A DNA stretch of 16,308 bases from Thermoproteota archaeon (GTDB lineage: Archaea; Korarchaeota; Korarchaeia; B14-G2), in contig QMWA01000020.1 of the NCBI GenBank assembly GCA_003661385.1, positions 1 to 16,308 of the forward strand. The letters are read 5' to 3'. This document shows positions 542-3,584 of this stretch, in pieces. The notes beneath the pieces were generated by a model. It made no database searches and was not told where the DNA came from. It saw only the letters and a list, made by a program, of their open reading frames with translations. How positions within the stretch are numbered: the stretch's first letter is position 1; each line of letters opens with the position of its first letter. Both the position numbers and the translations under genes were made by a program.

Positions 542-3584
<3,043 letters not shown>

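Follow-up and report, generated by a model that had tools for sequence, protein, structure and literature searches.

Can a ribosome work with a pyrimidine at position 2655 (E. coli numbering) of its only sarcin-ricin loop (SRL)? The SRL is among the most conserved RNA motifs, with G2655 as the anchor of its base triple, and a true U2655 in the only rRNA copy of an organism would break this rule and provide a natural system in which to ask which parts must change together. The stretch of DNA analysed here (16,308 nucleotides; hereafter the window) is the entire contig C20 of a 1.74-Mb draft genome that comprises 206 contigs and is 91% complete. The contig starts within a 16S rRNA gene, of which the 3′ part is present, and continues with a full archaeal 23S rRNA gene; its coding genes are open. 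On balance, we favour the reading that U3323 of the window is a genuine, tolerated natural G2655U change in an isolated Korarchaeia family, carried by its working 23S rRNA and accompanied by a remodelled factor-binding centre. The features of the rRNA locus are:

539 to 3588, plus strand: 23S rRNA gene, the sole copy in the assembly (Rfam RF02540, 2719 bits, model positions 1–2987 of 2987)
3313 to 3343, plus strand: helix 95 with the SRL, stem GGCGCCC/GGGCGCC (sequence, fold and E. coli alignment)
3323, plus strand: U at E. coli position 2655 (alignment and genome survey)
3328, plus strand: A2660, the ricin-target adenosine, retained (sequence and alignment)
3329, plus strand: A at E. coli position 2661, as in all Korarchaeia read (alignment and loops of relatives)

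The SRL lies in helix 95 of the complete 23S rRNA and aligns with E. coli positions 2653–2667. Window positions 3321–3335 read UAUUACGAAAGGAAC, that is U-AUUACGAAAGGA-AC, with the individual bases A3322, U3323, U3324, A3325, C3326, G3327, A3328, A3329, A3330, G3331, G3332 and A3333. Alignment to E. coli rrlH assigns U3323 to position 2655 and A3329 to position 2661, and both departures named in a preliminary description of this DNA therefore stand in the assembly. The bulged G2655 of the G-U-A triple is missing, with U3323 in its place. Positions A2654, U2656, C2658, A2660, A2662, G2663, A2665 and A2666 are the same as in other archaea. A GNRA tetraloop with the ricin-target A2660 is present (G3327 A3328 A3329 A3330), the C2658–G2663 closing pair and the U2656/A2665 partners are predicted to correspond to C3326/G3331 and U3324/A3333, and the stem (3313–3319/3337–3343) forms seven unbroken G–C pairs and one U–G pair. 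Sequence, alignment and fold thus bear out the earlier statement that A2660, the tetraloop and the closing helix are retained.

The two departures differ in how rare they are. Position 2655 is G in 20 of 20 aligned archaea and in E. coli, with U only in the window genome, whereas position 2661 is A in 12 of the 20 archaea and G in 8. Every same-class 23S gene read (14 genomes) carries AGUACGAAAGGA, as do two sister-group genomes and a distant archaeon (G041), and G occupies 2655 in all 20 loops read from the phylum of G038. Scans with non-G-loop patterns covered 409 further archaeal genomes, drafts with or without a 23S gene (115 from the phylum of G033 and 294 from that of G057), and none of them gave an rRNA match. 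The first non-G pattern had been too loose, giving matches that were short or without rRNA context, and a scan of the genome collection with ATTACGAAAGGAAC was set aside because this pattern is too short to be specific (at least 119 matches, with no rRNA among those inspected). U2655 is private to the window genome among the sampled archaea, and this genome is the sole member of its family among the compared relatives. By contrast, A2661 is inherited within the class and ordinary, and we rejected G2661A as an anomaly because it is fixed across Korarchaeia. The universality originally claimed for AGUACGAGAGGA consequently holds at 2655 in everything sampled and fails at 2661; when the loops of relatives are aligned, U2655 is unmatched and A2661 is common to all Korarchaeia read. 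Compared with Ca. Korarchaeum cryptofilum and other Korarchaeia, the window loop has the same site, stem position, GAAA tetraloop with A2661 and AGGAAC 3′ strand, but those loops keep G2655 (AGUACGAAAGGA) where the window has U2655. The occurrence of A2661 (AGUACGAAAGGA) in the distantly related G041 (L030) indicates that this change is old or has arisen more than once.

G2655 forms the G2655–U2656–A2665 triple and stacks on G2664, and His44 of EF-G switch I docks at this base (PMC8668904). Model duplexes lose about 5.5 kcal/mol when the bulged G is exchanged for A or C, and in 16S helix 17 a U that occurs naturally at the bulge forms no triple (PMC8450098). A pyrimidine at 2655 is lethal in E. 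coli by the account given in PMC4176186, and G2655C, going by a title cited in PMC7026604, is lethal and affects translocation. These E. coli mutants (Macbeth and Wool 1999 and Leonov 2003, as cited in PMC4176186 and PMC7026604) share a pyrimidine at 2655 with the window, but theirs was engineered and, by those citations, lethal, whereas the window U is natural and lies in the only rRNA copy. The S/R-like motif of helix 17 (PMC8450098) likewise has a bulged U in a sarcin-ricin-type motif, where it sits outside the triple, but that site is less constrained and is not a factor-binding loop. We propose that an SRL with U2655 would still fold, keeping the GNRA tetraloop, C2658–G2663, U2656–A2665, A2654/A2666 and the strong G–C stem. 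It would lose the G2655–U2656–A2665 triple and the stacking on G2664, leaving a looser bulge, and should still allow GTPase activation, which uses A2660 and the A2662 phosphate. This loss at the bulged base may be tolerated because the factor-binding centre has changed elsewhere, through A1067G, GPPIA in uL11, GHADF in EF1A and two divergent EF-2s that stand in for the canonical one.

This proposal presupposes that the base has been read correctly. A second rRNA operon with the canonical loop would have undercut it, and our search returned a single 23S match in the draft genome (206 contigs, 91% complete). The sole 23S gene has a substitution at 37 columns that do not vary among 20 archaea (39 departures with two gaps); leave-one-out counts for other isolated lineages are comparable (29–74), so the window 23S is not abnormally divergent. 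Helix pairs 376:398, 702:730, 1279:1291 and 1806:1811 are changed on both sides, each position being recovered as the other's partner, and pairs 1764:1988 and 2516:2568 fit the same pattern of two-sided change. Such compensation argues for a functional, well-read rRNA, and this structural coherence weighs against a consensus error, from base calling or assembly, at one base of an organism that truly has AGUACGAAAGGA like its class. We consider such an error possible but unlikely. The genome is metagenome-assembled in 206 contigs and its rRNA contig starts inside 16S, no replicate genome of the family exists among the relatives, odd bases are what a scan of many windows would pick out, and a pyrimidine at this position is lethal in E. 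coli. The change is also a single G-to-T, a common error type at low coverage. However, other changes in the factor-binding centre sit on other contigs, and no relative could have supplied the base: as no related SRL carries U at 2655, chimaeric assembly with a neighbour cannot create U2655. We infer from these sequence comparisons that U2655 is quite likely real and not a base-calling error.

The remodelling of the factor-binding centre that we invoke involves 23S rRNA, a ribosomal protein and elongation factors, of which the following parts, along with two initiation factors, lie in the window:

1748, plus strand: G at E. coli position 1067, in the GTPase-associated centre (alignment)
10978 to 12783, plus strand: aIF5B, G domain motif DLPGHEAF intact (sequence)
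13177 to 14412, plus strand: aIF2-gamma, G domain motif DCPGHETL intact (sequence)

Position 1067, the other classic EF-G contact, is A in 20 of 20 aligned archaea and in E. coli, and G only in the window 23S. Taking the familiar EF-G footprint, the chance that at least two of four columns are altered is about 0.003, a post hoc figure with column 1069 not fully invariant, and the coincidence is only suggestive. Protein uL11, which packs against the 1067 region and is encoded on contig C18 (L356), reads GPPIAPALG, with GPPIA where relatives have GPPLG; at least 27 of the other 28 genomes retain the Gly that is altered here. In EF1A (L243, G000:C3), switch II is GHADF compared with GHRDF in relatives, and the EF1A of G021 (L249), the only other genome whose EF-2 is strongly divergent, has GHVDF. 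All three changes, in 23S (contig C20), uL11 (C18) and EF1A (C3), are private to this genome or nearly so. The catalytic His of aIF5B and aIF2-gamma is kept (DLPGHEAF and DCPGHETL), as had been described. We also considered co-adaptation of uL6, a protein in contact with the loop, and rejected it because the sequence of uL6 is ordinary.

Elongation factor EF-2 departs further. The preliminary description had asked whether EF-2 is altered in this lineage and whether dph genes exist: Dph1/Dph2 were not found in any of 26 class members and are present in three sister genomes, and the window genome has two divergent, non-canonical EF-2s, on contigs C61 (EF-2A) and C14 (EF-2B):

L200 (G000:C61) 4383 to 6657, minus strand: EF-2A gene, frame broken at switch I by an insert at about 6434 to 6466 (sequence)
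L201 (G000:C14) 2588 to 4639, minus strand: EF-2B, 683 amino acids, no domain IV tip loop (sequence)

No canonical EF-2 was found in the 91%-complete draft, although one may sit in the unassembled 9%. Both proteins miss the TIGR00490 cut-off of 738 bits (581 bits for the best piece of EF-2A and 454 bits for EF-2B), and the diphthamide loop HxDxxHRGPxQ is missing from each: EF-2A has HTDPAHTGYSEV, and EF-2B is without the domain IV tip. Other class members carry canonical EF-2, except G021 and the 70%-complete G018, in which none was found. The EF-2 of class member G002 agrees with the assignment of the class to Korarchaeia: counted from the second codon of the frame, its histidine lies at 603, the position reported for K. 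cryptofilum. G021 (66% complete), from another Korarchaeia family (f3), has only a strongly divergent EF-2 (L197, G021:C6) with the tip SPNPKLRGYQQM, and its 23S was not found in its draft. EF-2A is sister to one of the two EF-2s of G038 (L284), with 100/100 support and 61% identity, and the second EF-2 of G038 also lacks the tip. G038 is probably an Odinarchaeum (Asgard), and the sisterhood of the two sequences suggests lateral transfer between Korarchaeia and Asgard archaea. The position of EF-2B in the tree is unsettled, as it forms a long branch and groups with the EF-2 of G021 only when both are included. A known class of archaea lacks Dph and has a second EF-2 (PMC10307638), and the window genome, with no Dph1/Dph2 and two EF-2 genes in its 91%-complete draft, fits it. 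It shares with the cases of Narrowe 2018, as cited in PMC10307638, the absence of Dph1/Dph2 and two EF-2 paralogues of which one is tipless, and differs from them as cited in belonging to Korarchaeia, in having an EF-2A nearest an Asgard EF-2 and in its apparent intron. No link between the known cases and an altered SRL is known, and the canonical loop is retained in the probable Odinarchaeum.

These observations bear on a stronger proposal, in which U2655 is genuine and adaptive, having co-evolved with the translational GTPases (EF-2A/EF-2B and EF1A) to give a distinct GTPase-activating interface. The docking of EF-G switch I at G2655 (PMC8668904), the two divergent EF-2s in place of a canonical one, the change of EF1A from GHRDF to GHADF with GHVDF in the other odd family f3, and the joint occurrence of A1067G and uL11 GPPIA would all suit it. 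We nevertheless find it improbable, as it rests on a single case, the f3 23S being missing from its draft, and the aIF5B and aIF2-gamma motifs are unchanged. Bacterial EF-Tu has Ala at the same EF1A position with a canonical loop, and the sister of EF-2A also occurs alongside one: the SRL of the probable Odinarchaeum is AGUACGAGAGGA, so EF-2A does not require U2655, a change of EF-2 alone does not explain U2655, and strict coupling between EF-2 and the SRL is weakened and not shown. The earlier assertion that the loop implies co-adaptation was thus too strong, given that an EF-2 type 61% identical coexists with the canonical loop in G038 and that canonical korarchaeal relatives without Dph1/Dph2 have G2655 unchanged. 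A further reading, in which editing or modification replaces the U of the gene with a different base or a modified nucleotide in the rRNA, would be compatible with an analysis of DNA sequence, but we know of no U-to-G editing among recognised rRNA processes and regard this as very improbable, taking the RNA to be unedited. Returning to the tolerated G2655U that we favour, its fullest version, a living archaeon with a pyrimidine at 2655 in its sole SRL that is viable through functional linkage to a co-remodelled centre (A1067G, uL11, EF1A and an EF-2 gained laterally whose mRNA has an intron), is one that we advance only tentatively.

The EF-2 case, with the canonical protein apparently lost, a laterally related replacement and a probable mRNA intron, is of interest independently of the loop. 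At switch I, ACTGCCTGCACGCGCGTGCAGGCAGGTCGAG breaks the EF-2A frame, and pairing between its flanks could give a central helix of 4 bp (CGAC/GUCG) with two 3-nt bulges, UA|A and AG|U. Cuts after the second base of each bulge would take out 31 nt and leave GELLLTDYDEEERKRGITI in a 747-amino-acid frame. The insert region folds well beyond shuffled sequences (z −5.6), and its minimum-energy fold pairs the outer part slightly differently and lengthens the central helix. In its helix, bulges, cut sites and restored frame, the insert looks like an archaeal bulge-helix-bulge intron, and we treat it as a putative one; an assembly insertion is possible. A simple pseudogene is disfavoured, since removal of the 31-nt insert restores the 747-amino-acid frame, and a dispersed repeat was rejected because the hairpin has no further exact copy in the genome. 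Introns of archaeal cbf5 pre-mRNAs are cut between the second and third bulge residues (PMC2738675). The putative EF-2A intron shares with these the bulge-helix-bulge form, the cut positions and the restored frame, and differs in lying in an EF-2 gene, in its length of 31 nt and in being known from sequence alone.

Further RNA genes accompany the 23S gene in the window. An RNase P RNA gene (3619–3903) begins 31 bases past the 23S 3′ end, and a search at Rfam gathering thresholds returned no 5S gene in the window. An initiator-tRNA-like sequence on the plus strand (about 4331–4466), called by neither ARAGORN nor Rfam, seems to carry additional hairpins in its anticodon and T regions and may be a tRNA interrupted by two or more introns. 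Two further genes lie on the opposite strand and probably contain introns:

14413 to 14502 and 14507 to 14606, minus strand: two adjoining tRNA genes of 90 and 100 nt, the longer with an ambiguous anticodon
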